Shown here one piece after another: positions 1,757-19,511 of a stretch of DNA of 64,000 bases. Within the stretch, counting starts at the first letter, position 1. The number at the start of each line of letters is the position of its first letter. The translations under genes and the position numbers were made by a program. Below the pieces are notes generated by a model, which saw only the letters and a program-made list of their open reading frames with translations, was not told the origin of the DNA and did not search any database. This stretch comes from Micromonospora zamorensis (GTDB lineage Bacteria > Actinomycetota > Actinomycetes > Mycobacteriales > Micromonosporaceae): assembly GCF_900090275.1 (NCBI RefSeq), contig NZ_LT607755.1, positions 3,844,001 through 3,908,000 of the forward strand, written 5' to 3'.

Positions 1757-3883
1757 TCACCGCGCCGGCTCGGCCGGTAGCCGGTGCCGACGGATCAGCC
1801 GCTGCCCGATGAAGGTCCGCCAGACCCGGTCCGCGACGGTCGGTTCGACGATCCAGAGCCGACGCTGCGCCTCGGCGAGGGTGAGCGGCGCGCTGAAGAG
1901 ATCCAGGAACAGCCGGCTGCTGCGGTTGAGCGCGAACACCTGACCGTCGACCCGGCGGAACAGGTGCCGGTCCGCCGGCAGGTCGCCCGGGACGCCCTCC
2001 TGCTCGTCGGACCGGATTCGCCGGTACGCCTCCCAGACCTGCTCGTCGTCACGGTCCACGAAGGAGCCGTTGGCGAGGAACTCGGTCTGGTCGTCGGCGT
2101 CGTGCCGAACCCGGTCGTGGGCGAGGACGCCACGCACCGCAGTGCCGTACCGGTCGTGGTAGAAGAAGGTGTGCGGGGTGTCGGTGCTGCCCAGCCACGG
2201 ACGGTGGTAGTGCCCAGGGTTCAGACCGGCCTTGGCCTGGGCGACCTCTGCCTGTGCTGTCTCGGTCACCGGCTCGTCGTACTTGAGCATCCGGACGATG
2301 TCCGAACCCTCCACCGGCCGCACGTTGGTGATGCCGAAACGGTCCGGCTCCTTCGCGACGATGGCGCCCGGGGTCAGCATGAAGTCGCCGAGCCCGCCGA
2401 GGGTCCAGAGGTCCGGGTTGTCACGCAGGAAGTTGACGCTGTCCAGCGCCTCTTCCCGGGTCTCGGTGGGAAAACCGGTGAAGCCCATCATCTGCACGCC
2501 GATGTTGGCCTTCGTCATCGCCGTCATGGTGCGTCGTGCCTGTTCCGGCTTCGTGCCCTTGTCGATCAGGTCGAGGATGCGCTGGTTACCGGACTCGAAG
2601 CCGACCGAGATGGCCACGCAGCCGCTACGCCTCAGCAGCTCGCAGCGCTCGTCCGACCAGTACTTCTCCAGCCGGATCTCGGCGCCCCAACGGAAGTCCA
2701 GCCCTCGCTCGACGACGCGCTCGGCGAAGCGCAGGATGGTCGCGGGAGCGAGCACGTCGACGGAGAAGTAGATGAACTTGGCGAACTTCGACAGCTCGGT
2801 GACGTCCGCGACCATGGTGTCCACCGTGTCCTGCCGCCACGGGCTGGTGGGACCGTCGGTGTTCAGGCCGTAGTCGCAGAACGTGCACTTGTTCCAGTAG
2901 CAGCCTCGGGTCGGCGAGTAGTAGACGAACCGCTCCGGGCTGAGGTAGAGGTCCCAGGGCAGGCCGGAGAAGTCCGGCACCGGCACCTGCGCCAGGCGCT
3001 CGTAGCGCAGGGGCAGCTGACGCTGGCGGCCGTACCTGGGGTGCAGTCGGACGTTGGGGTGCCCGGCCGGCAGCGTGCCGGTCTGCACCGCGTCCAGGAT
3101 CTCCGTGTACGCGCTCTCCCCCTCACCGACCACGATGGCGTCGAAGTCGGCCAGCACCTGGAAGACGTACTCGGGTTTGCTGGCGCACTTCCAGACGTCA
3201 GAGATTTCCGTACCACCCGCGATGAGGAAGACGTCCGGGCACGCCTTGCGGACGAGTCGGGCGATCCAGAGCGCGAACGGCAGCTGCCACTGGTAGGTGG
3301 CGCTGATGCCGATCACCTGGTGCCCTCCGGCGGCCAGCCGTGGGATCAACACGTCCTCGTAGTAGGGCAGGAAGGGCCGGTTGAGCCGCGCGAGCAGCGC
3401 CTCGTCGGTCAGCGCGGCCACCGAACCGATCGAGATCATCGGCGGCGGGTGCAGCCGGAAGCCGGCGTGGAACTGCCCGGGGAAACCGACCGTGCCGAGC
3501 GCGTCCATCCAGGAGATCACGCCCTCGACGGCATCCTGGTAGTGCCGGTAGTCGTAGAACAGGGTCGGGTCCTGGAGCACCCCGATCGACCGGCGCAGCC
3601 GCTCCGGATCAGGGTCGGGCAGGCCGAGCTGATTCGCCCGGGCCATCAGCGCGTCCGGGCCGCTGAGATCGGCGATCGAGAGCCGGGACAGCTCCCGCTG
3701 CAGCCACTCGTACGCCGACGGGGTGTACGAATGGTGGAACGCCTCGATGTTCGCGTCGATGATCTCGGCCGGCCGGTGCCCCTGTGCCCGAGCGTACGAA
3801 TCGAGGTAGTTCAGGGAGTGGTATCCCGAGGTGGGATCGGTCAGCGGGGGGTAGATCAGTGCCGCCTTCACGGTGCCGCTCAT
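1757..3883 (-). CDS. B12-binding-type radical SAM enzyme of the RiPP cluster
   Basis: A 708-aa protein. Residues about 90-270 resemble a Rossmann-like cobalamin-binding module (GGHQVIGISATY, then FLIAGGTEISD and AIVVGEGES). A radical SAM core follows with the cluster motif GCYWNKCTFCDYG (CX4CX2C) near residues 320-332, then SAM-barrel motifs (GAEIR, SVGFESG, MMGFTGFPTET). Such enzymes commonly C-methylate or rearrange peptide carbons. The start at 3883 is chosen because AGGAGG precedes it and the longer reading would run into tfuA. It begins 10 nt after the tfuA stop and ends the precursor-ycaO-tfuA-rSAM operon. The fold call is firm; the reaction is inferred. Confidence 0.85.
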   Translation of the reverse strand: MSGTVKAALIYPPLTDPTSGYHSLNYLDSYARAQGHRPAEIIDANIEAFHHSYTPSAYEWLQRELSRLSIADLSGPDALMARANQLGLPDPDPERLRRSIGVLQDPTLFYDYRHYQDAVEGVISWMDALGTVGFPGQFHAGFRLHPPPMISIGSVAALTDEALLARLNRPFLPYYEDVLIPRLAAGGHQVIGISATYQWQLPFALWIARLVRKACPDVFLIAGGTEISDVWKCASKPEYVFQVLADFDAIVVGEGESAYTEILDAVQTGTLPAGHPNVRLHPRYGRQRQLPLRYERLAQVPVPDFSGLPWDLYLSPERFVYYSPTRGCYWNKCTFCDYGLNTDGPTSPWRQDTVDTMVADVTELSKFAKFIYFSVDVLAPATILRFAERVVERGLDFRWGAEIRLEKYWSDERCELLRRSGCVAISVGFESGNQRILDLIDKGTKPEQARRTMTAMTKANIGVQMMGFTGFPTETREEALDSVNFLRDNPDLWTLGGLGDFMLTPGAIVAKEPDRFGITNVRPVEGSDIVRMLKYDEPVTETAQAEVAQAKAGLNPGHYHRPWLGSTDTPHTFFYHDRYGTAVRGVLAHDRVRHDADDQTEFLANGSFVDRDDEQVWEAYRRIRSDEQEGVPGDLPADRHLFRRVDGQVFALNRSSRLFLDLFSAPLTLAEAQRRLWIVEPTVADRVWRTFIGQRLIRRHRLPAEPAR

Positions 3884-3893
3884 CGACTCCTCC

Positions 3894-5291
3894 TCAGCCG
3901 ACCCGGGCCGGTGAACCGGCCAGGGTGTCCTCGTGTGCGCTCGTGGCCACCGCAGGCAAGTGCGGGGTACCGAACGCCTTGACGTACGCGACCAGCGGTT
4001 CGGCGGCGTACCGGAACGACGCCAGGTCGACGAACCCCCGGTCCCACGCCGCCGCCTCCAGCCCGTCGACGGCACAACCCCACAGCCTCGCGAAGCACGT
4101 GTCGACGACCTCGGTGCGGAAGTGCAGCCGACCACCCGGGCGGCGGCGCCCCGTCGTACGCGGAACGAGCGTCTCGTTCAGCGACGCGGCGGTCGCCGCG
4201 ACCTGCCGCGCCGCGGTGAGCAACGCGGGGGTACGCAGGGGCGCCGCGACCATCCACAGCGACAGGCTGCGGTGTGGCGTGGTGCCGAACGCCCGCACCA
4301 GCACCCGCAGCACCGCCTCGCGGTCGTCGAGTCCCCGTTCCCGGTCGGTCAGCCAGTCCCACCCGGTCGGTGGCGCCGTCGTCAGCCCTCGCCGGCCGGC
4401 GACCTCGCGGGCGCGCTCCTCGACCATCGGGGCGGCGATGTCGACCTCCGCCAGCCCGGCCAGTACCCCCCGCCGGTGCCAGGCCGCCGACTCGGGGTGC
4501 AGCAGCATCAGCACTGCGGCGGCCTCCCGGTCGCTGACCCAGTGCCCGCCGACCGACTCTCCGGCGAACCGCGACCGCCAGCTGTCGAGGAATCGGGTGT
4601 GCAGGTTGTCGATCGGCTGATCGTCGGCGTGCGCCGGACACAGCTCGGGATCGTTGTCCGCCGCCATCGACAGCAGCATCCGCGCGTCGGCGCCCTTGGC
4701 GTCGCAGGGGTCCTGCCGGTGCCACGTCAGGAACCGGTCCACCACCCCCGCCGCCTCGGGTGGCGCGCTGCGCTCCAGCGCCCGGTAGGACCGCCGCCGG
4801 AAGGGCAGCTCCTGGCCGATGTCCAGCAGCAGCACCGCCTCGGCGTCGCTGAGCACGCCGGCCGCGACGGCACGCCGCAGCGCGACCCGGATGTTCACCA
4901 GAGGCACGCTCAGGGCACGGTGGCCTTCCTCGGCGGGCCCGTGCACGACCGCCACCTCGTCGTCGCCCGTGACGATCCCGTCGCGGTAAAGCTGGAACAC
5001 CTCGCCCACACCACGCATCCCGAACGGCCACAGCTCGGCGGCGCGCAGCGCGCCCATGCTCGCGGCGCCGGCCACGGTCACGCCACGGTCGAGCAGGTCG
5101 AGGATCTCCCGGTGGCGGACCGGCGGGTGTTGCAGGAAGAACCCGTCGATGACGAGGACCCGGTCGCCGGGTGCGACGTCCAGGCGGAGCAGGTCGCCGT
5201 GCGCGACGGGCGGCAGCACCACCGCGTCGGGCAGCAGCCGGACGACCTCGTCGGCCGGCAGGCTCGGACCGATGAAGACGACGTCAGTCAC
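3894..5291 (-). CDS. tfuA: TfuA-like protein with long C-terminal extension
   Basis: A 465-aa protein whose first ~190 residues match TfuA. It opens with VVFIGPSLP, contains LVIDGFFLQHPPVRHREI, and carries the hallmark GAASMGALRAAEL at about residues 75-88, then GMRGVGEVFQLYRDG and DDEVAVVH. TfuA proteins are the usual partners of YcaO enzymes that make backbone thioamides (thioviridamide family, methyl-CoM reductase thioglycine), probably supplying or handling sulfur. The GTG start overlaps the end of the preceding YcaO by 8 nt, so the two are translationally coupled. The remaining ~270 residues are not recognised and roughly double the usual size. They contain mixed acidic and arginine-rich helices but no clear motif. 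Confidence 0.85.
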   Translation of the reverse strand: MTDVVFIGPSLPADEVVRLLPDAVVLPPVAHGDLLRLDVAPGDRVLVIDGFFLQHPPVRHREILDLLDRGVTVAGAASMGALRAAELWPFGMRGVGEVFQLYRDGIVTGDDEVAVVHGPAEEGHRALSVPLVNIRVALRRAVAAGVLSDAEAVLLLDIGQELPFRRRSYRALERSAPPEAAGVVDRFLTWHRQDPCDAKGADARMLLSMAADNDPELCPAHADDQPIDNLHTRFLDSWRSRFAGESVGGHWVSDREAAAVLMLLHPESAAWHRRGVLAGLAEVDIAAPMVEERAREVAGRRGLTTAPPTGWDWLTDRERGLDDREAVLRVLVRAFGTTPHRSLSLWMVAAPLRTPALLTAARQVAATAASLNETLVPRTTGRRRPGGRLHFRTEVVDTCFARLWGCAVDGLEAAAWDRGFVDLASFRYAAEPLVAYVKAFGTPHLPAVATSAHEDTLAGSPARVG

Positions 5292-6450
5292 GGGGCACTC
5301 CCGGTCGGGTACTCAGGGCCCGCTCGTCGAACATCCGCAGGCCGGGGGCGAACACCTTGCTCACCGGGATGCCGATGTCGTCATGCGTCAGGTCGACGCT
5401 GAACGGCTCGACGCCGGTGACGCGCTGCACCCGCGACGCCAGCTCGCGCAGCACCTGGGTCACGTTCCCCACCGGTGGGGAATCCCGGCGGACCGGCCGG
5501 ACGGGTCGATCGACGGTGGGCGGTGGCACCGGCGGCGCGCCGACATCGTGGTACGCGGTGGCGTCGATGTCGTCCCGGGCTCCGGAGACCATGACCAGCC
5601 GCGACTGCGCCGCCTCCGACATGGCCCGGCCGACGGCGATCTCCGGGTCCACGTGGCAGCCGAAGCCGCCGAAGGTGACCGGGAGGTCCTCCGACCAGAT
5701 CGAGGCGGCGTAGCAGGGCACGCCGACCGCGTTGGTGATGTCGCAGACCTCCACCCAGCAACCGGCGCGCAGCAGCGCCTCGTGCACCGTGCGGGTCATC
5801 GCGTTGGTGGCGGTGCCCGGGTCGGCGTAGGTGCGCTCGGCCAACGGTGAGGTGCAGTACGGGGCGATGCAGTCGCGCTCGACGACCTCCAGCAGGGCGT
5901 GCAGGCTGGCCTCGGCGAAGGTGTTCCCGGTCGCCAGCCCGTTGCTGCTGGGGGTGAACAGGGCGCGGTCCCAGCCACGCCGGACGGTGAAGTCGAGCTC
6001 GATGGTGGCGCGGGGCACCAGGCAACGCGTACCGGTCACCAGCCCACGGCCGGCCACCCAGTCGAGCTCGACGGCGGGGGTCAGGGGTGATCGTTCCGCC
6101 AGGTGCAGCCACCGGACGTCGTACGGCAGGTCGAGCGCCTCCGCCGGGGACCGGACGACGGTCCCCGGCCGGAGGTTCTCGGCATGCCAGGACTCGATGC
6201 TCTCCATGACCGCGCTGACCCGGGCCTGCGTCGCGGTGGCGCCGGTGCCGACGCTCACCGCCATGGTGGCTCCGACCGGCCGGTAGGCGACGTGCACCGG
6301 CAGCCCGATCTCGTCGAGCCGGGTGATGTCGGCGACCCGGGTGATCCGGAACCGGTCGAGCATGCCACCGACCCGCTCCCAGGTCTGCTCCACGGTGGCC
6401 GTCCGGTAGGTGCCGGATCGGAACGCGATGGTCTCGGTCGTGTCAGTCAT
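5284..6450 (-). CDS. ycaO: YcaO enzyme paired with TfuA
   Basis: A 388-aa stand-alone YcaO without a fused leader-binding domain. The ATP-binding signatures are present: AVMESIESWHAEN near residue 78, the EVVERDC helix near 190 and GRAMSEAAQSR near 275. YcaO enzymes activate a peptide-bond oxygen by phosphorylation, giving azolines, amidines or, with TfuA, thioamides. The adjacent coupled tfuA and the upstream precursor genes favour thioamidation here. ATG at 6450 has GGGAG about 8 nt upstream. It lies 27 nt after precursor 1. Function on which core is inference. Confidence 0.88.
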   Translation of the reverse strand: MTDTTETIAFRSGTYRTATVEQTWERVGGMLDRFRITRVADITRLDEIGLPVHVAYRPVGATMAVSVGTGATATQARVSAVMESIESWHAENLRPGTVVRSPAEALDLPYDVRWLHLAERSPLTPAVELDWVAGRGLVTGTRCLVPRATIELDFTVRRGWDRALFTPSSNGLATGNTFAEASLHALLEVVERDCIAPYCTSPLAERTYADPGTATNAMTRTVHEALLRAGCWVEVCDITNAVGVPCYAASIWSEDLPVTFGGFGCHVDPEIAVGRAMSEAAQSRLVMVSGARDDIDATAYHDVGAPPVPPPTVDRPVRPVRRDSPPVGNVTQVLRELASRVQRVTGVEPFSVDLTHDDIGIPVSKVFAPGLRMFDERALSTRPGVPRD

Positions 6451-6477
6451 CGAGGCTCCCGGCGTGGGGTGGGGAAC

Positions 6478-6852
6478 TCAGAGGATGAGGACGGCGATGA
6501 TGTTGACGTTGTTGTCGGCGATCGGGGCCACGCCACCGGCGACCGTCTCCAGCTCGGCCTCGGTCAGCTCGTTGAGGTCGACCAGCGGCACCTCGGGCAC
6601 GTGCAGCACGTGCAGGCCGGGCGTGCCGGCCCAGTCGGCGACGACCTGGTCCTTGGTGTAGAGCGTGGCGGGCTGGGCGCGGTCGACCTCGACCCGGGCG
6701 CCGGGGGCGACCGGCAGGCCGGCAGCCGTCGCGTAACCGGTCGGGTCGGCGAGCAGGCGCTGCAGTTCCTCGTCACTGCGCCATACCGCGGTGACCAGTT
6801 CCGAGTACTTGGTCACGAACCTCGCGCCATATTCCTGTTCGTCGTTGCTCAT
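6478..6852 (-). CDS. RiPP precursor 1, NHLP leader, Asn/Val/Ile core
   Basis: A 124-aa peptide with a nitrile-hydratase-like leader (NHLP): FVTKYSELVTAVWRSDEEL, a DP near residue 37 and GLPVAPGARVEV, matching the alpha subunit of nitrile hydratase in miniature. The leader ends NELTEAELETVAGG, a double-glycine cut site for a C39 peptidase. The predicted core is VAPIADNNVNIIAVLIL (17 residues) with no Cys, Ser or Thr, so azoline chemistry is impossible on it. Its V/I/N/A composition recalls proteusin cores such as polytheonamide. ATG at 6852 is preceded by GAGGAAAGGA. First gene upstream of ycaO-tfuA-rSAM, so that trio is the likely modifying set. Confidence 0.88.
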   Translation of the reverse strand: MSNDEQEYGARFVTKYSELVTAVWRSDEELQRLLADPTGYATAAGLPVAPGARVEVDRAQPATLYTKDQVVADWAGTPGLHVLHVPEVPLVDLNELTEAELETVAGGVAPIADNNVNIIAVLIL

Positions 6853-6906
6853 CGTTCGGTCCTTTCCTCGGGGGTCACTGCAAGACGGGGTGATCGCTGT
6901 GGCGAG

Positions 6907-6938
6907 AACGCTACGAAGATCGAGGTTCGACATTCAAT
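6907..6938 (-). promoter_or_regulatory. candidate promoter of precursor 1
   Basis: Minus strand TTGAAT (6937..6932) and TAGCGT (6913..6908) are 18 bp apart and would start transcription near 6901, about 50 nt before the ATG of precursor 1. Weak prediction by consensus alone. Confidence 0.3.
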
Positions 6939-6962
6939 GATTTCGTCTGAGTGCCATCAGAA

Positions 6963-6998: not shown

Positions 6999-7361
6999 TC
7001 AGGTGCAGCAGCAGGGGCAGCAGCAGGCGCAGCTGGGATCCAGGCCGGCGACGACGCTGTCCAGCTCGTCCTCGGCCAGCTCCGCCTGAGCCACCGGCAA
7101 CAGCGACGGCACGAAGAGCACGAAGGTGCCGGTGGTCCCCGCCTGCTGCCAGGACTCGACCTGCACCTCAAGGTCCGGATCGGTGTCGGCGACGTCCCGC
7201 ACCACCCGGACCTGCACATCCTCCGACAGGTGAAGCCCGTAGCCGGCGAGGAACCCGCGTGGGTCCCGGTCGAGCGCCTGCTCCTTGACCGGGTCGGCCC
7301 AGACGTCGGCGACCAGCCGGCTGTACGCGGCCACGAAGACCGCTCGATCGACAGGTGTCAC
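6999..7361 (-). CDS. RiPP precursor 2, NHLP leader, cysteine-packed core
   Basis: A 120-aa peptide with an NHLP leader: FVAAYSRLVADVWADPVKEQAL, DPRGFLAGYGLHL and a beta-rich middle similar in layout to precursor 1. The leader ends DELDSVVAG, a GG-type processing site. The core reads LDPSCACCCPCCCT: seven cysteines plus one Ser and one Thr in 14 residues, ideal for dense thiazol(in)e formation. The GTG start at 7361 is chosen because AGGGAG sits just upstream and it gives a leader the same length as precursor 1; an upstream GTG at 7451 would add an unrelated Pro-rich stretch. Probably processed by the fused cyclodehydratase and SagB enzyme of the second arm. Confidence 0.85.
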   Translation of the reverse strand: MTPVDRAVFVAAYSRLVADVWADPVKEQALDRDPRGFLAGYGLHLSEDVQVRVVRDVADTDPDLEVQVESWQQAGTTGTFVLFVPSLLPVAQAELAEDELDSVVAGLDPSCACCCPCCCT

Positions 7362-7717
7362 ACCCTGCTCCCTTCGATGGTCGACCGCCGGTGGCGGCGA
7401 CGGGCAGCACGGGGGGTTCCGGGCCGCCGGTTTCGCTTCATCGTGGGTCACCGGTGGATCTGGCCCGTCCAGAGAGCGGGAATTTCATCGAATGTGGCCG
7501 CGAAAAGGTCGCGCTGCGGCGAAAGCCGGGTAATTGGGAATCAGCGACTTGCGGCGGATGGCGATCCTAATGATTGTCACCACTGTGGACAAGTAGTAAT
7601 TCCTCGCCTGTCACCCGCCCGGTGCGCACACCTACGCTGCGATCGGCGGACCGCACAGCGCGACAGCGGTTCGACGGGGTTGCCGTGTTCCGTCACCGAG
7701 TGCTGCCGGAGGCCACC
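7362..7717. other. divergent control region between precursor 2 and MerR gene
   Basis: A 356-bp region without a gene between the oppositely oriented precursor 2 and the MerR-type regulator. It must hold the promoter of the precursor arm, but I see no convincing -35/-10 pair on the minus strand. On the plus strand a promoter-like element with a dyad lies at 7574-7602. Confidence 0.6.
7574..7602 (+). promoter_or_regulatory. promoter with dyad, probable MerR operator
   Basis: TTGTCA (7574-7579) and TAATTC (7597-7602) are 17 bp apart. The dyad TTGTC-N9-GACAA (7574-7578 and 7588-7592) overlaps the -35 and spacer, the place where MerR-family proteins bind. It would drive the MerR-type gene from about 7609, giving a 109-nt leader. 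Confidence 0.4.
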
Positions 7718-8464
7718 GTGACCATCGACGAGGCGACGACGACGCCCGGCGGCCCGGGCGGGTACAGCGTGGAGGAACTCGCCCGCAAGGTGGGCATGTC
7801 GCCCCGCAACATCCGTGCCCACCAGGCCCGGCGACTGCTTCCCCCGCCAGTGCGGCGTGGTCGGGCGGCGCTCTACGACGACTCCCACGTCCGCCGGCTG
7901 GATGCGATCCTCGCCCTGCAACGACAGGGCTTCAACCTGGTGTCCATCGAGGCGATGCTCGGGGTCCGGGCCAGTGACGAGGCGCCCGACGGGTTGACCG
8001 CGATGCTGCAACGTCTGACCGCCGACCGTCCCGCGCTGGCCCACGCGCTGACCCGGCACGGCGTGATCGGCCGGACCACCGACGGCATCGTCCGCACCGT
8101 CCGGCCACGCCCGCTGCGCGCCGCCCTGGACCTGCATCGCGTACGGGTGGGCACGGTGCCGGCACTGCAGACTCTCAGCGAGGTGCTGGACAGCCTCCGT
8201 CCGGTGGCCGACGAGCTGGTCGCCGCCGTCACCGCCCGGCTGCTGGCCCTCGCTCCGGAGCTGGTACGCGGCGGCGCCCGGTCGTCCTGGGCCGATCTCG
8301 ACCGGGAGACCCTGCTGCTGACCCAGGGTGTGGTCAACGTGCTCACCGAGGCGTTCCGGCTCGCCGTGGAGAACCAGTCGGAGGCGCACGTCGCCGAACT
8401 GTTGGAGAACCACCTCGACGCGGACGTGTGCCTGGAGGACAGCACGGACATCGACAACGGCTGA
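7718..8464 (+). CDS. MerR-family transcriptional regulator
   Basis: A 248-aa regulator. Residues about 15-85 form a MerR-type winged helix: YSVEELARKVGMSPRNIRAHQ, LLPPPVRRGRAALYDD, then the helix HVRRLDAILALQRQGF and VSIEAML. The remaining ~160 residues are helical and contain no cysteine cluster or known ligand fold, so the effector is unknown. GTG at 7718 is chosen because GGAGG lies 5 nt upstream; the longer reading starting at 7574 lacks this and would begin inside the promoter. It sits between the two arms of the RiPP cluster, divergent from the precursor genes and convergent (7 bp gap) with the ABC transporter, so it probably controls the precursor operon. Confidence 0.8.
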   Translation: MTIDEATTTPGGPGGYSVEELARKVGMSPRNIRAHQARRLLPPPVRRGRAALYDDSHVRRLDAILALQRQGFNLVSIEAMLGVRASDEAPDGLTAMLQRLTADRPALAHALTRHGVIGRTTDGIVRTVRPRPLRAALDLHRVRVGTVPALQTLSEVLDSLRPVADELVAAVTARLLALAPELVRGGARSSWADLDRETLLLTQGVVNVLTEAFRLAVENQSEAHVAELLENHLDADVCLEDSTDIDNG

Positions 8465-8471
8465 AAGACCG

Positions 8472-11400
8472 TCAGCTCGTCGCGGGCTGCCCGTCCGCCT
8501 GCGGACTCTCCGCCACGGTGTCGGACCGTTCTGGTTCGGTGAGCAGTTGCCGCCGCGCCAACCGGTGGAACAGCCCGTCAGGGAGGTCCATCAACTCGTC
8601 GAAGCTGCCCCGCTGGACGATCCGCCCCGCTTCGAGGACCACGATGGTGTCCGCCGCCCGGACCGTGGACAACCGGTGGGCGATGACCACCCGGGTCGCG
8701 GCCAGGGCGGCGGTGCTCCGACTGACCACCTCCTGGGTCCGGTTGTCCAGGGCGCTCGTCGCCTCGTCGAGGAAGATGATCCGGGGCAGCGGGGCCAGCG
8801 CGCGGGCGATCAGCACCCTCTGCCGCTGCCCGACGGAGAGCGTCCCGCCGCCGAACGGCACCATCGTGCTCATGCCCATCGGCAGGGCCTCCAGGTCGTC
8901 GGCGAGGCCGGCCATCCGCGCCGCCTCCCACACCTGGTCGAGCGGGAAGCTGCCGGCGCCGCAGATGTTGTCCCGTACCGAGCCGGCGAAGAGCTGGCCA
9001 TCCTGCAGGACCACGCCGCACTGCCGGCGGACCGCGTGCACGTCGAGTTCGGAGAGATCCTGGCCGTCGTAGAGCACCGCACCCTGCTGTTGGCGCTCGA
9101 AGCCGAGCAGCAACCGCAGCAGTGTGGACTTCCCGCAGCCACTCGGCCCGACGATGGCGACGAACTCACCCGGGCGGACGTGCAGGTCGATGTCGACGAG
9201 CACCGGCGGCTCGTCCGGCTGGTAGGCGAAGGTGAGCCGGTGCAGCGCGATCTCGCCCCGCAACTCCCCCGGGTCCACCCGGTCCGGGCGCGCCTCCGGG
9301 TCGGCGCGCAGGATCTCCCGCAGGCTGCCCAAACGTGGCACTGCCGCGATCACCTCGACCCCGGCCGACACCAGCACCAGCAGCCCGCCGAGCAGCATCG
9401 CGAAACCGACGTTGAGAATGAAGAAGTCAGCCGGCGCGACCCGGCCGGCGAGCGGCCCCATCAGTACGGCGAAAAGGACCAACTGACCGGCGACCGGCAG
9501 CACGGTGCCGAAGGCGACCAGGCCCGCCTGACTCTGCCGGACCCGTTGCAGCGCCGCCCGGGCCGTCGCGGCGACCTCCGACCAACGTGCGTGGGCACGG
9601 GTTTCGGCGGCCGCCAGTTTGATTTTGACGATGCCGCCGAGGAGTTGGTTGGTCATCGCCGCCGCCCGGTGCTCGGCCGGCAACGCGGACCGTTGCTGAC
9701 GGACGATCAGCACGGCGAACGCGCCGAACGTCAGCATCGTGACGGCGACGATCCCCGCCGCCCACAGCCCGAGCACGGGCTCGACCACCAGGAGCATGCC
9801 GAGGGTCACCGCGACGATCGCGGCCGCCGAGACGAGCTGCGGCAGCAGCGCGCTCAGCGCCTCACCCACGAACGAGATCCCCAACATCGAGTTGGCGATC
9901 TCACCGCTGCTGCGACCAGCGAAGAACCGGGCCGGTAGCCGCATGAGCCGGTCCCAGATCGCCAGCTGCGCGCCGGACTGCATCCGGCCGTCCAACCGCA
10001 GCAGACGCAGGTTCTGCACCACCCCCACCAGCCCCGCGACCACCGCGGCACTCAGCATCAGCGCGAGGAAGCCGCCGAGGCCGTTCACCTCGCCCTGCCG
10101 GGCCAGCTGGCCGAGCACCTCACCGGTGGCCAGCGGCACGCCCAGGCCCAGCAGTGCCACGCAGGTGGCGGCGAACAGCAGGCCCCGCACGTCCCGGGAC
10201 GCACCGACCAGCCCGGCGCGCAGCAGGTGGCGCATCCGAGCGGTCGGCGGCAGCGGCGCCTGCACCTCGGTCGCCTCGGCGGCGAACGTAGCGGCCACCG
10301 CCGCGTCGATCGGCCCGTACACCCGGGTGTCCGGGTCGACGTGGTGGTAGCGGCCCCGGCGAAACAGCAGCGGCACCGCGACGGCGCGCTCCGGGTCGGC
10401 GCCGGCCCGCCACCCCACCAGTGGCCCCAGGTCCCGCCGCCACCACCGGTCCGGCAGCCGCACCTCACGCAGGAACAGGCTGGACGCGCGGGTCACCGCG
10501 TGCACCGCCGCCCGGTCGTCCAGTGGCGCGCGACTGCGGTCGGCCGGCTCGTTGATCGGGCTGCCCATCCCCTCGGTGACCACCCGGACCACCGAGGCCG
10601 CCCGCCCGTACCTGTCGAAGCCGGCCTCGTCGTCCGGAACCGGAGCCGCACCGCCCGCGCCGATCACCCCGATCGACCGGCGGGCCGCCGCGGCGAGCAC
10701 CGCCGCGTCGGTCTCCCGGCGCCGTTGCACGGCGCTCAGCAACGCCGCGTCGGCCTCCTCGATCCGGGTCTCCACCATCCGCAGCAGCCGGGCCACGTGC
10801 TGGTCGACGGCCGATCGCAGTTGACCGTTGACCAGCAGGTCCCAGCTGCCGTGGCTCTCCACAGCGCACGGCGACTCGGCCACCACCCAGTCCCGCTCGG
10901 CGACCAGCAGCAGCTCCCGCTCCCCGGACATCTCCGCCGGGCCACCGTCGTTGCGTCGCAGTTGTCCACCGGCGCTGCGCAGCCACCACGCGCCGCCGGT
11001 CGAGGTGAGGGCACTCCCCTGCGCCAGCGAGATGATCTCGCGCCCACAGAGCGTGGACGCCTCCCGGGGGGCCTGCCCGCGGCGCAGCGCGTCGGCGATG
11101 GTGACCAGCACCAGGTCCACCGCCGCGACCAGCTCCGTCGCGGCGGTCCGCGCGCGCAGCGACGCCCCCTCGTCCGCCACGCGGCCGAGCCGGACGTGTC
11201 GCTCCAGCAGGGACAGGTGACGCCGGGACAGCCCCCGCAGTTCCGTGCCGGGCAGCGGCACCAGGATCAACTGCCACGCGCCGATCGCGGTGGACGTCGG
11301 CACCAGGCCACCCGCAGGCAGCCGGGCCACATGGTGACGACGCGAAGGGCTCATCCCGGCCCGGCGCACCGCGAACAGGTCGGCCTCACCCCCGGTCACC

Positions 11401-11504: not shown

Positions 11505-11528
11505 CAGCGTCTCCTCGGATCGTCGTGG

Positions 11529-13712
11529 TCAGTGGTCCCGGACCAGGCGCGCGTACGCCCCGTCCTGGGCGACGAGCTGCTCGTGGGTGCCGCGCTCCAC
11601 CTCCCGACCGCCGTCCAGCACGACGATCAGGTCGCAGTCGCGGACCGTGGACAGGCGGTGGGCCACGATCAGGCAGGTCGCCCCCCGCCGGCGCAGGTGC
11701 AGGTCGATCCGGCGTTCGGTCTCGGCGTCCAGCGCGCTGGTGGCCTCGTCCAGCACCAGCACCCGGGGGTTGCGCACGAGCGCTCGGGCGATCTCCAGCC
11801 GCTGCCGCTGCCCACCGGAGAAGTTGCGGGCGTTCTCCCGCACCGGACTGCCGAGGCCACCCGGACGGGCCGCGACCTCGTCGTAGAGGCACGCGTCGGT
11901 CAGCGCGGTGACGACGTCCTCGTCGGCGACAGTGAGGTCCCACATGGTGACGTTGTCCCGGACCGTCCCCTCGAACAGCCGCTGGTCCTGGTCCACCATG
12001 GCGACCGTCGCCGCCCAGAGCCCGTCGTCGGTCGCGGCCCGCTCCAGGCCGTCCACTGTGACCCGTCCGGTCCAGGGACGGTAGAGCCCGGCGACCAGCC
12101 GACCGACAGTCGACTTGCCACTGCCCGACCTCCCGACGAGCGCCACCCGGGCACCCGGCGGCAGGTCCAGGCTGAAGTTCTCCAGCAGTGGACGGCCCAA
12201 CGGGTTGTAGCCGAAGGTGACCTCCTCGATGCGCAGGTGCCCCTCCATGGGCGTCATCGGGCGGGCGGGTCGGTCCTGGGCCGACGGCAGTGGGTACCGC
12301 TCCACGTCACGCAACCGATTCAGGTCGGCACTCATGTCCTGCAACCGCGAGCCCAGCGCGGTCAGATTGCCCAACGGGCGGTTCATCGCGGCGGCCAGGC
12401 TCTGCATACCGACCAGCACGCCCACACTCATCGCCTCAGCCACGACCTGCCGGCTGCCCAACCCCAGCAGCACCGCTGTGGTCCCCGAGGCGAGGAGCGC
12501 CGGCAGGACGGAGAGCACCGCTGTGGGCACCCCGAGCCGCTGCTGACGGGTGGCGACGGTGGCGTGGCGCGCCGCGAACCGGGCCACGGCGCGTTCCTCC
12601 TCACCGCCGGCCTTCACCGTCTCGATCATCTGGACCGTGGTGTACACCGTGGTCACCAACTTGCTGCGGTCCGCCTGAAGACCGGCGACGGCGGTGGAAC
12701 GGGTCGAGGCGACATAGCGGAGCACGCTGACGTTCAGCCCGGCGAGGACCACCGCGCACAGCCCGAGCAGCAGGTCGTAATGGCAGAGCAGAGCCCCGTA
12801 CGCCAGCACCAGGCCGGTGTCCACCACAGTGGTGGCCGTCCGGCGGGTGAGCACCTCGGCGACCACCTCGTTGCCGCGGACCCGCTGGCTGAGGTCGGCG
12901 GCCTGCCGCTGGTCGAAGAAGGCCGGCGGCAGCCGCAGCAGATGTCGGAAGAACCGGGCGGCGCTGGCGAGGGCGAGCGCCGTCTCCGCGCGTACGGTCA
13001 GGCGTTGCTGAAGCAGGCTGGCCAGGAAGGTCAGCACGGTGGCCACCGCCACCGCCGCCACCAGGCCGGCGAACGCCGCCCGGTCCTCCTGCAACAGCAC
13101 CCGGTCGACGAAGACCTTGGCCATCACCGGGATGGTCAGACCGACCACGGCGATCAGCAGGCCGAGCAGCAGCATCTGCGCGATCGCCGAGCCCGGGCCG
13201 CGCCACCGCTCGGCCAGCGCCCGCACCAGCCGGTAGCGGGTGCCGCCGGGCCGGAACTCCGGGCCGGGCTCCATGGTGAGCACGATGCCGGTGAAGGCAC
13301 CGTCGAACTCCTCCCAGCTGACCGCACGGGGACCGGTGGCCGGATCGTTGATGAAGACCTTACGGCCGAGCCCTTCCAGCACCACGAAGTGCTCGAACCG
13401 CCAGAACAGCACCGCCGGCAGCGCCACAGTGGCCAGGCCGGCCAGGTCCATCTGGAAGCCCTTGGCCACCATGCCGTACCGGCGGGCGCCCTTGAGCACG
13501 GTGGCCGCGGTGGAGCCGTCCCGGCTGACGCCGCACACCCGGCGCAACTCCTCCAGGGGCACGTGCCGACCGTGGTGTGCGAGCAGGATCCCCAGCGCGG
13601 CGGCACCGCACTCCACCGCCTCCATCTGGATCAACGTGGGCGTACGGACCCGTCGACGCCGGATCCTGGGCAGCTCCGGCGTGCCGCTGACGGCGGTCGT
13701 CGGCGCGCTCAT
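11529..13712 (-). CDS. NHLP-type ABC transporter with C39 peptidase domain
   Basis: A 727-aa peptidase-containing ATP-binding transporter that should cut the NHLP leaders at their GG-like sites and export the cores. The C39 domain occupies residues 1-150 with catalytic Cys in QMEAVECGAAAL (near 34), His in RFEHFVVLEG (near 107) and Asp in INDPATGP (near 121). Transmembrane helices lie at about 165-430. The ATPase has VGRSGSGKST (near 526), NFSGGQRQRLEIARAL (near 630) and LVLDEATSALD (near 655). The start codon overlaps the stop of the HlyD-type gene (ATGA), indicating coupled translation of one export unit. Confidence 0.92.
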   Translation of the reverse strand: MSAPTTAVSGTPELPRIRRRRVRTPTLIQMEAVECGAAALGILLAHHGRHVPLEELRRVCGVSRDGSTAATVLKGARRYGMVAKGFQMDLAGLATVALPAVLFWRFEHFVVLEGLGRKVFINDPATGPRAVSWEEFDGAFTGIVLTMEPGPEFRPGGTRYRLVRALAERWRGPGSAIAQMLLLGLLIAVVGLTIPVMAKVFVDRVLLQEDRAAFAGLVAAVAVATVLTFLASLLQQRLTVRAETALALASAARFFRHLLRLPPAFFDQRQAADLSQRVRGNEVVAEVLTRRTATTVVDTGLVLAYGALLCHYDLLLGLCAVVLAGLNVSVLRYVASTRSTAVAGLQADRSKLVTTVYTTVQMIETVKAGGEEERAVARFAARHATVATRQQRLGVPTAVLSVLPALLASGTTAVLLGLGSRQVVAEAMSVGVLVGMQSLAAAMNRPLGNLTALGSRLQDMSADLNRLRDVERYPLPSAQDRPARPMTPMEGHLRIEEVTFGYNPLGRPLLENFSLDLPPGARVALVGRSGSGKSTVGRLVAGLYRPWTGRVTVDGLERAATDDGLWAATVAMVDQDQRLFEGTVRDNVTMWDLTVADEDVVTALTDACLYDEVAARPGGLGSPVRENARNFSGGQRQRLEIARALVRNPRVLVLDEATSALDAETERRIDLHLRRRGATCLIVAHRLSTVRDCDLIVVLDGGREVERGTHEQLVAQDGAYARLVRDH

Positions 13713-14518
13713 CGCCGCAGCAACCAGTCGATCGGGTGTTCCCGGTCCACGGTGAACCAGGCGGTGACCTCGCTGGCCGAGTTGAGCTGGAACGGCGGCG
13801 GGGACCTGGTCCAGCGCAGGCCACCCGGGGCGGCCGGGTCGGGTTCCAGTGCGACCGTCACCCGCACCACGCTGCCGCGGGCGAGCAGCCGCCGGACGTC
13901 CGGCCCGGTGCCCAGGAAGGCGCGCAGCGAGGCCTCGGTCTCCGGGAAGGCACCGACAGTGGTCACCTGGCCGGCCAGGGTGCCGAACACGTTGCGCGGC
14001 GCGGCCGCGGCGGCCACCTCGACGGACACGCCGGGTTGCAGCAGCGGGGCGGCGACGGCGGGGGCGTAGACGACTGCCTGCAACGCGTCCCCGGCGGTGT
14101 CGAGCCGTTCCAGGTCGGCCAGGTGCGTGCCCGGTGTGACGATCTCGCCCTCCGAGACCAGCCAGGCGACGACGTACGCGTCACCCGGCGCGGTCTCCAC
14201 CCGCACCTTCCCGTCCGCCGTGCGCAGGCTGTAGAGGGGTGTGCCCTTCGGCACCCGCTGGTGCGGCGACGCCCACACCTTGGTGACCTGGCCGCTGTCG
14301 AGCGCGTCGAGGGCCGAGATCCCGTTCGAGTGGATCAGCACCCCGGCCGCCTCGACGGTCCGGGGCACCACAGTGCGTACCGACCAGACACCTGCGGCGA
14401 CCACGACGATGACCAGCGCGGTGGTGGCCAGCCAGTTCGGCACCGTGGTCAGTCGGACCGCCCGGTCCAGTTGCTCGGGTGCCTCCAACTGGCGCAGAGC
14501 CTGCCGCCGGAACTTCAT
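13709..14518 (-). CDS. HlyD-type secretion protein of the NHLP export system
   Basis: A 269-aa membrane-fusion-like protein. It has a short cytoplasmic N terminus, one transmembrane segment (about residues 30-52), then a beta-barrel/lipoyl-like domain with VEAAGVLIHSNGISALDALDSGQVTKVW and a C-terminal EPDPAAPGGLRW barrel strand. Such proteins accompany NHLP bacteriocin ABC transporters; in a Gram-positive cell it would bridge membrane and wall. ATG at 14518 overlaps the SagB stop (ATGA) and the gene overlaps the next transporter by 4 nt, so it is fully embedded in the operon. The longer open reading upstream overlaps SagB and is rejected. Confidence 0.85.
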   Translation of the reverse strand: MKFRRQALRQLEAPEQLDRAVRLTTVPNWLATTALVIVVVAAGVWSVRTVVPRTVEAAGVLIHSNGISALDALDSGQVTKVWASPHQRVPKGTPLYSLRTADGKVRVETAPGDAYVVAWLVSEGEIVTPGTHLADLERLDTAGDALQAVVYAPAVAAPLLQPGVSVEVAAAAAPRNVFGTLAGQVTTVGAFPETEASLRAFLGTGPDVRRLLARGSVVRVTVALEPDPAAPGGLRWTRSPPPFQLNSASEVTAWFTVDREHPIDWLLRR

Positions 14519-15978: not shown

Positions 15979-16016
15979 GTCGACCGCCGACCGACCGGGT
16001 CCACCACGGTGGCCAT
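15975..16016 (-). CDS. 13-codon ORF coupled to the sagB start
   Basis: ATG at 16016 has GGAAGG about 8 nt upstream and encodes MATVVDPVGRRST. Its TGA overlaps the GTG start of the SagB-type gene. It lies in the 80-nt gap after the cyclodehydratase. More likely a coupling leader than a functional peptide, but the strong ribosome binding site belongs to it rather than to sagB. Confidence 0.4.
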   Translation of the reverse strand: MATVVDPVGRRST

Positions 16017-16058
16017 CCCCACATCCTTCCCACGCTCCCGGTCGCCCGGGAACGCCGG

Positions 16059-18335
16059 CTAGAAGAACACGTTCAGCGGATTGGCCGACGTCTCGTCGAC
16101 GGCCAACGGGCCCCGACCGAGACGGGCCGGCACGTCCCACAGTCGGCCGGGACCGAGCCGGCGCCAGAAGTGCCGCAGTCCCGGCACGACGACCTTCACC
16201 ACCGCCAGGTCGACATCCGGACGGGACTGGTCGACGACGATCACCTCCAGGCCGGCCCGCTCCGCCCGGCGTACGCAACGACGCACGTCATCCCCGACGT
16301 CGCCGGTGGTCAGCGCCGGGTGGTCCGCAGCGGTGCGCGGCGGTCGGGTGGGATCCGGGACCAGCCAGGGCTGGTCGGCCACCCGCACGGTGCCGAACCA
16401 GCGCGCGGTGTCCGGGTCGTCGACGCCGTACCGGTTGCGGGCGGTGGCGGGTCCGGCGACGGCGGGCAGGAACTGGTTCACCTCGGTGAGCGCCCGGGTC
16501 AGCGCGACCCGCGCGTCCAGGTGCGCGCCGAAGCCGACCAGGACGTCCTCCGGCCCCCCGTCGACCCGCCGGGACACCGCGGCGAACGTGGGTACGCCGA
16601 GGTCGGCGGTCAGGTCGAGGGCCCACAGTTCGCGGCCGAGGGCGGTGGCGTGGTGGTCGACGCAGGCGGCGGTCCACGGGTCGCCGAACGAGGCGAGGTC
16701 CACCCCGGGCATCCGGGACCGGTGGTACCACCACAGGGCCACGCTGTCCCGCTCCACGAGTTCGCAGAAGCCCTGGAGGATCGCCTCGGACAGGTTGCCG
16801 CCGGCCGCGCAGCCGTTCGAGTCGGCCGAGCACACCCCCAGCCCGGTCAGCTCCGGATGCCCGTACCAGCAGTGCACGGCGGGCAGCTCGCGCGGTGTGT
16901 GCCGGGTCAGCGACCAACCAGTGGTCCAGTCCAGCTCCACGTCGTCGGGCAGCGGGCGGGGAACGCGGTGCAGGTGACCCAGGTCGCGGTTGAGCCGGTC
17001 CCGGTCGGCGTACTGGCGTTCCGAGAACAGCAGCAGATCCCTCAGGTGCACCGCCCGGTCCGGGCCGAGCTGCCGGTAGGTGGCCCGGTGCACCGGGCGG
17101 TCGCCGCGCCACACCCCGCAGTAGCGCTCCACCGCCTCCCCGACCGCGCTCATCCGGGCCTGCAGGTCGGTCCGGCCCTTGCCGCCGCTCTGCCCGCGCA
17201 GATTGCGACGCAACGCGGCGAGCTGGCGGGGCTGGGCGAAGTTGTGCCCGGCCGAGTAGGTGTGGGTGACGCCGTTGTCGGTCGCCTCCAGCGGGGTCAG
17301 CCGGCTCACCACGCCCAGATACCGGCTGACGTGGTGGACGAGCGAGGCGTACGCCTCGGCGGGTTCCTGGATGCGGGAGTCCCCGGCCCGACTGGGCTGG
17401 GTGCCGCTGGGTGGCAGGTCGATCCGTGGCTCGGCCTTGCGGACGAGGTCCGGGTCACCGCAGGCGGGGCACTGCGGCTGGCGTACCAGTTGGTGGCTCT
17501 CGGTGCTCAGGTCCCTGGTGTCCAGGGCGACCATCCGGCCGGTGAGGCGGGGAGACTCGCCCCGGACGGCGAGCACGGCGAGTTCGGCGGCGAGCAGCCC
17601 GGCGGCCATGGTGGCCAGGCCGGGCAGGACCGCGCGGCCGGGTTGCGGCAGCGGATCGGTCAGGTCCTGCCCGTCGAGGAAGGCGTTCACCTGTTCGTTC
17701 TCCTGCCAGCGTTGCCGCAGGCAGACCCAGCAGCCGGTGCGACCCGGCACGAGGTGCGGGCCGAGGAAGACGACGTTGCCGTGTGGCCGGGCCAGCGTCC
17801 ACGCGCGACCGGCGGCCAGGTGGCGATCGTTGAGCAAGGCCAGCCGGGGGTCGAGCATCGACGACGGCAGCACCAGCACCTGGGCGGTGTCGGGGCCGGC
17901 GTCCGGTGCGTCCGGCCCGACCACCGTCGGGGCGAGCCCGAGGGCGCGCAGCGCGTCGGCGGTCTCGGCCACCCTGGGCGCGCCGAGGTCCACGATGGTG
18001 ACCGTTCCCCCGGCCATCCACCGCCGTCCGGCGTCGGGTGGGACACCCCGGGCGTCCCAGCCGGCGGCCTCGGCCGCCGAGGTTTGCGCCGGACCGGACA
18101 CCAGAAGGCCGTGGTCGCGCAGCCGGGCGAGAGCTGCGGCGACGGCGGCGACCGGGTGTCGGGTGGCCAACCGGGCCACCACGTCGGCCAGCGGCGCGGC
18201 ACCGTCGAGCTGGTCGGCCAGGTCCGCGGCGACCGGGTCGTCGATGAGCAGGCTGCGGGTCTCCCCCAGCACCACGAGCGGGCCGTCGGGCAGCCGCACC
18301 GGCACGTAGTCCGATCGGAAGCGCGGACGCCACAT
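16059..18335 (-). CDS. fused leader-binding/YcaO cyclodehydratase (TOMM type)
   Basis: A 758-aa fusion that should install azolines on Cys/Ser/Thr of a precursor core. Residues 1-320 are the leader-recognition (ocin-ThiF-like) half: a winged-helix start YVPVRLPDGPLVVLGETR, a Rossmann-like GGTVTIVDLGAPRVAE, and two CxxC pairs, CWVC (near 200) and CPAC (near 290), for a structural zinc. Residues 330-758 are YcaO: ARMSAVGEAVERYCG, AILQGFCELVERDSVALWW and GFGAHLDARVALTRALTEVNQ, which form the ATP site. It ends NPLNVFF rather than the proline-rich PxPxP tail common in azoline YcaOs. ATG at 18335 is preceded by GGGAGGAA. Confidence 0.88.
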   Translation of the reverse strand: MWRPRFRSDYVPVRLPDGPLVVLGETRSLLIDDPVAADLADQLDGAAPLADVVARLATRHPVAAVAAALARLRDHGLLVSGPAQTSAAEAAGWDARGVPPDAGRRWMAGGTVTIVDLGAPRVAETADALRALGLAPTVVGPDAPDAGPDTAQVLVLPSSMLDPRLALLNDRHLAAGRAWTLARPHGNVVFLGPHLVPGRTGCWVCLRQRWQENEQVNAFLDGQDLTDPLPQPGRAVLPGLATMAAGLLAAELAVLAVRGESPRLTGRMVALDTRDLSTESHQLVRQPQCPACGDPDLVRKAEPRIDLPPSGTQPSRAGDSRIQEPAEAYASLVHHVSRYLGVVSRLTPLEATDNGVTHTYSAGHNFAQPRQLAALRRNLRGQSGGKGRTDLQARMSAVGEAVERYCGVWRGDRPVHRATYRQLGPDRAVHLRDLLLFSERQYADRDRLNRDLGHLHRVPRPLPDDVELDWTTGWSLTRHTPRELPAVHCWYGHPELTGLGVCSADSNGCAAGGNLSEAILQGFCELVERDSVALWWYHRSRMPGVDLASFGDPWTAACVDHHATALGRELWALDLTADLGVPTFAAVSRRVDGGPEDVLVGFGAHLDARVALTRALTEVNQFLPAVAGPATARNRYGVDDPDTARWFGTVRVADQPWLVPDPTRPPRTAADHPALTTGDVGDDVRRCVRRAERAGLEVIVVDQSRPDVDLAVVKVVVPGLRHFWRRLGPGRLWDVPARLGRGPLAVDETSANPLNVFF

Positions 18336-18485
18336 GGGTTCCTCCCGAGCCTCGTGGCCGGGCCGCGGCACCACCGGCCCCGCCGGCGGTCACGGCTGCT
18401 GTCATCGTCGCGGTCCGGTGCGCCCCGATCCGAGTGATGCCACCGGTTTCTGCCGTCCCCGACGTGGTGACCCTCGGCGGCAGGG

Positions 18486-19511
18486 TCAGCCGGCGGTGAC
18501 GGTCAGCGCGGTGTCGTTGAGGCCCAGCACCGATGTGCCGACGGTCTGTGCCGGCACGAGCAGCACGAAGGTCTCCACCCGGGTGACCCGGATCGACTTT
18601 CCGCTGACCGCCTTGCTGTGACCGGTGGCGATCAGGTCCGGGCTCTGCGGCTCCAACCGGACGGTGGCCGGGCCGCCGGGCGCCGGGCGCAGCGTGTCGG
18701 TGGCGTGGATCGTCAGAAAGGTGAGCGTGCCGGTCGGCACCGCGACCGCGCAGTCGGACCATTCCGCCCGGTCCATCGTCCGCTGCACCGCGCCGCCGAC
18801 ACCGGCGAGCTGCTGCCCGTAGACCTCCCAACCGCCGGCGAACTGACCGTCGAGCAGCGGGCTCGACACGACGAGGGACCGGTTGCCCGTCGTGGACCCG
18901 ATGCTGCGGGAGAACACCTCGGCGGCGAGGGCCCGACGGCTGGTCTCGTCCAGGGCGGCGCCGCCCGCGGTGGCCGGCCGGCCGTCGATGCTGCGGGCGA
19001 CCACCAGCGAAGGTTGGGTGACCTGAACGTTGTGGCTGAGCTTCCACTGGCCGTCGGCACCCAGCACGAACTGGCTGACGTCGGTAGGCGCCAGCTCCGA
19101 GCCGGTCAGTCGGAGAGTGGCCGTGGCGAGGAAACAGGACGGATCGCCGGGTGGCACCGCGAAGACCGGGTTGATGTGCTGGAAGGACGGTTGGGCTCGC
19201 TGGTTGTACGCGGCCCGACGGACTGCGGCGATGCTGAGGTCCAGCGAGGGCGAAACCTCCTGGGCCCGCAGCGCCTCGACGTCACCGGCCACCGAGGCGG
19301 CCGAGTCGGCCTGGTCGAAGGCGGTGAGCACGAGCGCCGCCCGGTCCCTACCGAAAGTGGCCGACCCGTGGGGCGCCGGGGTGGCCGCGTCCACCGGTTC
19401 GCCGCCACAGCCGCTCAGCATGAGCAGCGCCACCGTGGCGGCGGCGAACGGCATCGCGGGCACCGGCGCGGCGAGGGTACGCGGGCTCCTGACGGATCTT
19501 CTGCCCAGCAT
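18486..19511 (-). CDS. putative lipoprotein, function unknown
   Basis: A 341-aa exported protein with a lipobox LMLSGC (Cys 35) after a hydrophobic segment, so probably anchored outside the membrane. No catalytic motif is recognised. The mature part is beta-rich with two cysteines (DPSCF and WSDC) and repeated references to variable-length loops, like adhesion or sensor lipoproteins. Start at 19511 has GGAGG 5 nt upstream. It reads into the cyclodehydratase gene (150 bp gap) and follows the LuxR regulator (151 bp gap), so it may serve export or self-protection for the RiPP, but nothing proves it. Confidence 0.65.
   Translation of the reverse strand: MLGRRSVRSPRTLAAPVPAMPFAAATVALLMLSGCGGEPVDAATPAPHGSATFGRDRAALVLTAFDQADSAASVAGDVEALRAQEVSPSLDLSIAAVRRAAYNQRAQPSFQHINPVFAVPPGDPSCFLATATLRLTGSELAPTDVSQFVLGADGQWKLSHNVQVTQPSLVVARSIDGRPATAGGAALDETSRRALAAEVFSRSIGSTTGNRSLVVSSPLLDGQFAGGWEVYGQQLAGVGGAVQRTMDRAEWSDCAVAVPTGTLTFLTIHATDTLRPAPGGPATVRLEPQSPDLIATGHSKAVSGKSIRVTRVETFVLLVPAQTVGTSVLGLNDTALTVTAG

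Follow-up and report, generated by a model that had tools for sequence, protein, structure and literature searches.

Gene clusters that form azoles on precursors with nitrile hydratase-like leader peptides (NHLP) are reported to combine an NHLP-type precursor, a YcaO cyclodehydratase, and a dehydrogenase (PMC4603692, PMC11583998, PMC10676384), and the NHLP-Burk azole clusters carry tandem precursor genes, for which a two-peptide product has already been suggested (PMC4603692). Azoles and thioamides both come from YcaO enzymes, by different routes, and a role in supplying sulfur to YcaO has been reported for an archaeal TfuA (PMC8153245). Nitrile-hydratase-type precursors occur with TfuA in Actinobacteria (RiPPER Network 7; PMC6511847), B12-dependent radical S-adenosylmethionine (SAM) enzymes have been reported with TfuA in Bradyrhizobium and Desulforegula, and the occurrence of an azole-type ycaO gene and a TfuA-YcaO pair in one cluster has already been predicted (PMC8120280); a dehydrazole cluster of Nakamurella has a second YcaO next to TfuA (PMC10676384). 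Here, we analyzed a 64,000-nucleotide stretch of the Micromonospora zamorensis genome (GCF_900090275.1, contig NZ_LT607755.1, positions 3,844,001–3,908,000; hereafter, “the window,” whose numbering is used throughout), which encodes an azole-forming type and a thioamidation type of YcaO beside two precursors of ribosomally synthesized and post-translationally modified peptides (RiPPs). This hybrid RiPP locus is inherited as one unit, and we consider it probable that it yields two products, one from each of two paralogous precursors whose leaders are NHLP-like.

The genes at 1757–22587 were scanned against the Pfam and TIGR family models with their curated cut-offs, and gene starts were judged likely from a ribosome-binding site or from comparison with orthologues; the starts of the SagB, HlyD, and MerR genes are approximate. 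The first-pass annotation of this DNA had described two arms on the minus strand with two precursors, a YcaO-TfuA-radical SAM set, and an E1/YcaO-SagB-exporter set; all of these genes were found on that strand, with corrected starts, together with three genes beyond its list (a divergent MerR gene, a lipoprotein gene, and an AAA-LuxR regulator gene). From right to left, the minus strand carries the genes for the AAA-LuxR regulator, the lipoprotein, E1/YcaO-2, SagB, HlyD, ABC1 with its C39 domain, and ABC2, and a second unit comprises precursor B, precursor A, YcaO-1, TfuA, and a cobalamin-type radical SAM enzyme, from which the MerR gene diverges on the plus strand. The Pfam YcaO model (PF02624) matched only YcaO-1 and YcaO-2 across the whole 7.10 Mb single-contig genome; no third YcaO was found. 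Among named organisms, those with the locus most like this one belong to Micromonospora (YcaO-1 identity, 93–98%).

In the second unit, the thioamide arm, YcaO-1 (5284–6450) is a stand-alone protein of the thioamidation type, above the cut-off of TIGR00702, and its best sequence match in the PDB was the archaeal MJ1094 (6pe3; E-value 2.4e−28), ahead of LynD (3.9e−14). Its gene overlaps that of TfuA (3894–5291; an N-terminal domain and a helical C-terminal domain), and the two proteins scored above the cut-offs of PF02624 and PF07812, respectively; the nearest solved relative of TfuA was 6xp8. The equivalogs for McrA-glycine thioamidation were not matched by either protein (YcaO-1, 181.6 bits against a cut-off of 365 for TIGR03266; TfuA, 178.3 against 235.2 for NF033432), as one would anticipate if the system acts on a RiPP and not on McrA, and YcaO-1 was also below the cut-off of TIGR03604 (111 against 219). 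The C-terminal residues 233–440 of TfuA were barely covered by the rows of the solved-relative comparison. The helical C-terminal extension (residues ~233–465; window 3894–4595) is missing in the ~247-residue TfuA proteins of loci L023, L024, L027, and L029, and most of the other aligned sequences contain it as a longer C-terminal region. The radical SAM enzyme (1757–3883; Radical_SAM, 58 bits, above cut-off) has the CX4CX2C motif CYWNKCTFC, which is conserved among the relatives compared (CYWNRCTFC in genome G174), and is probably a C-methyltransferase. Against the B12-binding model, it scored 29.6 bits, with a cut-off of 32.1, and TokK was matched in the PDB (E-value 3.4e−5). Its membership of the RiPP radical SAM C-methyltransferase family TIGR03975 (80.9 against 281.85 bits) or of the PhpK-type P-methyltransferase family TIGR04479 (94.3 against 600 bits) was ruled out by scores below the cut-offs.

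In the azole arm, an E1-like leader-binding domain is fused to YcaO-2 (16059–18335; TIGR03604, 261.2 against 219.25 bits; TIGR03882, 114.8 against 36.9 bits), which is of the azoline-forming type: its nearest solved relatives were the azoline-forming LynD (E-value 1.4e−149) and TruD (5.4e−143), and it aligned with LynD across almost its entire length. The neighboring gene encodes a SagB/ThcOx-type azoline dehydrogenase (14515–~16010; TIGR03605, 160.3 against 78.4 bits), for which the nearest solved relative was CyaGox (5lq4; E-value 7.6e−65). Judged by sequence, these nearest solved relatives back the earlier assignment of YcaO-TfuA to thioamides and of SagB-YcaO to azoles. There is only one exporter set at the locus. 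ABC1 (11529–13712) is an NHLM exporter with a C39 leader peptidase domain (TIGR03796, 896.3 against 853.3 bits; PF03412, 109 bits; motif ECGAAAL), and its partners scored below their own cut-offs, namely ABC2, an NHLM-type exporter permease/ATPase (8472–11504; TIGR03797, 683.3 against 709.4 bits), and the HlyD-like adaptor (13709–14518; TIGR03794, 127 against 156.2 bits), the latter being above the cut-off of PF13437. Search patterns for TfuA and for the C39 motif proved too strict for some loci (the C39 motif was not matched in the translations of L009 and L060), a SagB pattern had no match, and none of the three was used as evidence.

Precursor A (6478–6852; ATG start, 124 amino acids, called from its translation and orthologues) and precursor B (6999–7361; GTG start, 120 amino acids, called from its translation and the core pattern in relatives) have paralogous leaders, each of which retrieved the other in searches. 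When cleavage was assumed after VAGG in precursor A and after VVAG in precursor B, core A was VAPIADNNVNIIAVLIL and core B was LDPSCACCCPCCCT. Between Micromonospora and other genera (23 loci for A and 22 for B), the mean identity was 0.47 for leader A and 0.52 for leader B, whereas that of the cores was 0.26 for A and 0.76 for B. This comparison left out L058 and L060 (the places of L038 and L039) and L040 (the place of L015), used one of the two L039 copies of precursor A, and dropped the precursor B match of L038, which is its precursor A. The nonapeptide ACCCPCCCT of core B was unchanged in 21 of 22 loci; only G174 departs from it (CCCPCCSTT), and there the Cys-to-Ser change leaves a residue that is still heterocyclizable. 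All 22 loci had 7–10 Cys, Ser, or Thr among 14–15 residues. In DNA, the pattern for CCCPCCCT followed by a stop was present in 19 of 250 Micromonosporaceae genomes and its reversed control in none; these 19 genomes are the 20 YcaO-2 carriers minus G174, and none of the 230 other genomes contained the pattern. The DNA encoding core B shows synonymous changes (e.g., TGT for TGC), suggesting that the peptide, rather than its DNA, is conserved. In contrast, core A is hypervariable, Asn-rich and then aliphatic, ranging from that of the window to NNVNNNLYQSK and YNAATAPGNNNNNHNNVIVLIV, and it lacked Cys, Ser, and Thr in 13 of 14 Micromonospora loci, including the window, in which no azole can therefore form on core A. 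A core as constant as CCCPCCC next to one that changes so quickly is unusual. The first-pass annotation had left it undecided whether one compound family or two, combining both chemistries, is made. Our results support one inherited cluster with two predicted chemistries; a core A without Cys, Ser, or Thr next to a Cys-rich, near-invariant core B makes two products likelier than one mixed compound.

The inheritance of the two arms was followed in 250 genomes of the family and 160 of the genus, together containing 35 distinct carriers. In the family scan, YcaO-1 was matched in 45 genomes at E ≤1e−40, of which 21 with at least 52% identity were counted as carrying orthologues; YcaO-2 was matched in 26, of which 20 with at least 57% identity were counted (the others reached 37–42%, and six genomes had only such a match); and the radical SAM enzyme was matched in 31 at E ≤1e−20, with 22 at 57% identity or above. 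All 20 carriers of YcaO-2 were among the 21 carriers of YcaO-1, and in the genus the same 27 of 160 genomes carried both YcaO-1 (E ≤1e−90) and YcaO-2 (E ≤1e−200). Fisher values of 1e−28 for the family and 3e−31 for the genus ignore relatedness and are not taken as probabilities. The arms lay on one contig at a distance of 2.27–10.7 kb in all 35 carriers. All 12 Micromonospora loci compared held the radical SAM enzyme, TfuA, YcaO-1, both precursors, MerR, the exporter genes, SagB, and YcaO-2, although only 125–145 of the 771 YcaO-2 residues fell inside the fetched stretches. At least two gene orders occur among the relatives: that of the window is conserved in L039, L043, L045, L046, and L047, and the azole arm is inverted relative to the thioamide arm in L040 (which coincides with L015, from a named Actinoplanes), L041, L042, and L044, all from outside the genus. 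No MerR or ABC2 gene lies between the arms in these four loci; in L042, ABC1 is followed by the beginning of an ABC2 gene, where the stretch ends. Because the carriers are interrelated, their counts show common inheritance, not a large number of independent events, and the 27 carriers in the genus, being close relatives, may represent few such events; linkage that has survived rearrangement is the stronger argument for one unit. Pairwise distances were also congruent across eight genes of both arms (r = 0.94–0.99; 10 loci, 45 non-independent pairs), but because all the genes evolved together, this congruence cannot assign enzymes to precursors. The locus is one inherited unit, real and conserved.

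On the basis of these computed gene identities, linkage, co-inheritance, and core conservation, we infer the chemistry, the pairing of enzymes with cores, the cleavage sites, the shared export, and the biological role, as follows. The E1 domain of the YcaO-2 fusion would bind leader B, YcaO-2 would cyclize the Cys residues of core B, and SagB would oxidize the resulting rings to thiazoles (Thz), the predicted result being a linear polythiazole in which the order Ala-(Thz)3-Pro-(Thz)3-Thr is constant. In the thioamide arm, TfuA would supply sulfur to YcaO-1, which would swap a backbone oxygen for sulfur in core A; this core is probably also C-methylated, by the cobalamin-type radical SAM enzyme. 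Both leaders, each ending in a GG/AG-type site, would be cut by the C39 domain of ABC1, and the ABC1-ABC2-HlyD set would export both products. More tentatively, and on balance doubtfully, the two products might form a two-component RiPP, in which the invariant hexathiazole (Ala-Thz3-Pro-Thz3-Thr) would be a fixed unit, for instance a metal or target binder, and the thioamidated, C-methylated Asn/aliphatic peptide a fast-changing specificity unit, the two being exported and acting together.

Several observations weigh against this scheme. The transcription unit of the thioamide arm starts with the precursor B gene, so the substrates cannot be told apart by gene order. With the NHLP leader model TIGR03793, precursors A and B scored only 18.5 and 24.5 bits against a cut-off of 50.9, which rules them out as bona fide members; both leaders can thus be called only NHLP-like. 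Outside Micromonospora, core A holds 1–4 Cys, Ser, or Thr in eight of nine loci, and YcaO-2 could act on core A there; three of them, L043, L045, and L046, have AAA, instead of GG/AG, where precursor A was assumed to be cleaved. The structure model of the radical SAM enzyme had a predicted local distance difference test score of 55.7 (13 sequences) and, being unusable, was not used. Distant relatives of this enzyme (29–39% identity) in L063, L064, and L065 had no TfuA or YcaO match in their stretches, so the clade overall is not tied to thioamidation; the relatives in L032 and L034 (29%) do have TfuA and YcaO. In genome G070, the radical SAM gene is broken into two reading frames, through either decay or a sequencing error, and SagB is retained without YcaO-2, which a simple pairing of enzymes and precursors leaves unexplained.

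This reduced relative, G070 (L058:1868–3963 and 13108–14499), has precursor A, MerR, YcaO-1, TfuA, SagB, and the exporter genes, whereas precursor B, the core B pattern, and YcaO-2 were not found in searches of its genome and locus. Its gene set fits the pairing of precursor B with YcaO-2, although the evidence is imperfect, and because its loss of precursor B coincides with the loss of an intact radical SAM gene, it weakens the assignment of that enzyme to core A. Genome G159 points the other way. Its radical SAM enzyme, 57–58% identical to that of the window, lies inside a thioviridamide-type cluster with APH, HopA1, a second APH, a flavoprotein decarboxylase-like protein, a PrmA-like methyltransferase, YcaO, TfuA, and a papain-type protease, and the family scan found neither a YcaO-2 orthologue nor the core B pattern in this genome; an orthologue accompanying TfuA-YcaO without an azole arm favors placing the enzyme on the thioamide side. 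No such cobalamin-type radical SAM enzyme is named in the available portions of the thioamitide literature consulted. The G159 cluster is represented by L062:8915–11131 and L066:6345–6584, and its small precursor-like open reading frame (ORF), the end of which was estimated from its length, ends in SVVVTPATHC. The substrate of the radical SAM enzyme is the weakest assignment of the whole scheme.

Among the alternatives, the one that survives best is a single product, in which both arms modify core B, first with azoles and then with a thioamide and methylation of the invariant Pro, leaving precursor A as an accessory or as a substrate of minor importance. The position of precursor B at the head of the thioamide-arm unit would suit this explanation, as would the joint absence of precursor B and an intact radical SAM gene in G070, and for nostatin A, an azole proteusin, the cobalamin radical SAM enzyme NstA is proposed to methylate Pro (PMC11583998), the residue that is invariant in core B. 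Nevertheless, precursor A was present in every opened locus with a close YcaO-1 orthologue (13 of 13 in L003–L015 and 10 of 10 in L038–L047; these counts share one locus, listed both as L015 and as L040) and is duplicated in G174, G070 keeps it with YcaO-1 and TfuA in the absence of precursor B, and the radical SAM orthologue of G159 accompanies TfuA-YcaO where both YcaO-2 and the core B pattern are missing. We therefore regard a single product as unlikely. Less probable still are two independent neighboring clusters that share the locus and the transporter by chance. Each half can be found alone, since YcaO-2 relatives of 40–42% identity occur by themselves with SagB and other cores (L049, L051), and 21 of the 22 TfuA-YcaO loci L016–L037 had no SagB match (the exception being L025). 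However, the perfect or near-perfect co-occurrence of the arms, their proximity in every carrier, and a linkage that was kept despite inversion led us to reject two unrelated clusters, and the paralogous precursors side by side with a single exporter set also speak against them. It is very improbable that core B is a largely unmodified, Cys-rich metal-binding peptide, with SagB and YcaO-2 acting elsewhere or on only one or two Cys: CCCPCCC could bind metal and a MerR gene adjoins precursor B, but YcaO-2 and SagB align with LynD (over nearly the full length) and CyaGox, the core B pattern follows YcaO-2 in 19 of its 20 carriers and in no other genome of the family, and MerR matched the metal-responsive families with at most 24.4 bits against cut-offs of 143–151.

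Two products from one locus are thus the reading that we prefer. Of the remaining genes, that of the MerR-family regulator (~7712–8464, plus strand; MerR_1, 56.7 bits) is separated from precursor B by a divergent intergenic region (7362–7711) with a conserved block, GAATTACTACTTGT, which showed one substitution in one of 11 aligned sequences (the alignment spans 7362–7690). Sharing this region with precursor B, MerR may control the operon of the thioamide arm. MerR orthologues were present in L003–L014, L038, L039, L043, and L045–L047, with no match in the fetched stretches of L015/L040, L041, L042, and L044. The lipoprotein gene (18486–19511, minus strand), with a lipobox-like LSGC, matched no Pfam family and adjoins YcaO-2 in both gene orders; its product is a candidate immunity or cluster-specific factor, of which immunity is a guess. 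The AAA-LuxR regulator gene (19663–22587, minus strand; PF13191 and PF00196), kept as a neighbor in L039 and L047, is probably the edge of the cluster.

More distant loci showed related combinations. In L025, from a Polyangium metagenome-assembled genome, a match to the E1/YcaO-2 fusion (28% identity, with a stop in the stretch; 4084–6664), a SagB match, and a TfuA-YcaO pair (10001–12630) occur together, and neither precursor A nor precursor B was matched; this is possibly another azole-plus-thioamide locus, outside Actinobacteria. L057 (G197; 1189–2754 and 9243–11776) has a further YcaO that includes an E1-like portion (28% identity to YcaO-2), approximately 6.5 kb from a TfuA-YcaO pair, and L056:9314–13644 (G232) has two YcaO and two TfuA genes arranged in tandem at one locus. 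Relatives of YcaO-2 with approximately 40% identity are accompanied by weakly related leaders, with cores ending in AMATIGTVSCPGACVGMSA (around L049:17191–17283) and AMATIGTVSCPGSCIGLS (around L051:15433–15558). Among the relatives of the radical SAM enzyme, that of L063:6130–11580 (G043; 38% identity) lies with an ATP-grasp peptide maturase, a SPASM radical SAM enzyme, and a small ORF ending in ADTNNNLC, possibly a graspetide-type hybrid with an Asn-rich tail. Downstream of the 29% relative in G218, a 67-amino-acid ORF (L064:11813–12016) ends in VAADNQVNVLC, which is Asn/Val-rich like core A.

Compared with known systems, the locus resembles the thiazole/oxazole-modified microcins with NHLP/Nif11-type leaders (nostatin A, dehydrazoles/carnazolamide, and NHLP-Burk) in its NHLP-type precursor, YcaO cyclodehydratase, and dehydrogenase, and nostatin A likewise has a cobalamin radical SAM enzyme (PMC11583998). 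It differs from them in its TfuA-YcaO pair and in its two precursors with opposite core behavior; unlike in those relatives, neither a lanthipeptide dehydratase nor a second radical SAM enzyme was found among the scanned genes, and core B is near-invariant, in contrast to the hypervariability ascribed to NHLP cores (PMC4603692). RiPPER Network 7 may include the thioamide arm; the main text of PMC6511847, without its supplement, does not contain the words Micromonospora, Actinoplanes, SagB, or B12. Most azole members of the TfuA-plus-azole clusters of PMC8120280 and PMC10676384 are said to carry split lanthipeptide dehydratases, and the Nakamurella cluster is discussed with one precursor, in contrast to the two found here; the available portions of both papers describe no cluster that combines a pair of precursors and separate arms with a single NHLM exporter. 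With the thioamitides of the thioviridamide type, the locus shares the YcaO-TfuA pair and, through G159, a radical SAM relative in a same-genus cluster, but its classification as a thioamitide was rejected because no macrocycle genes (APH, HopA1, or Cys decarboxylase) were present among the genes at 1757–22587. In the open-licence literature, supplements excluded, we found no description of a two-precursor azole and thioamide combination; the strings ACCCPCC, CACCCPC, and NNVNIIAVL did not occur there, and CCCPCCC occurred only in an unrelated blood-spot paper. In the comparison with known azole, thioamitide, and proteusin clusters that the first-pass annotation had called for, no described match to the full gene set was therefore found in open-licence main texts. 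Its view that no cluster with this exact set has been described agrees with this outcome, but was overstated, given 35 carrier genomes and the azole-plus-TfuA clusters already predicted (PMC8120280, PMC10676384). The predicted product family, undescribed in the literature searched, would be encoded in approximately one in six genomes of the genus (27 of 160). Each module of the locus is already known, and the combination of two precursors is what we did not find described; with both YcaO types, two sister leaders, and two cores, the locus offers a natural test of leader discrimination by paralogous YcaO enzymes.

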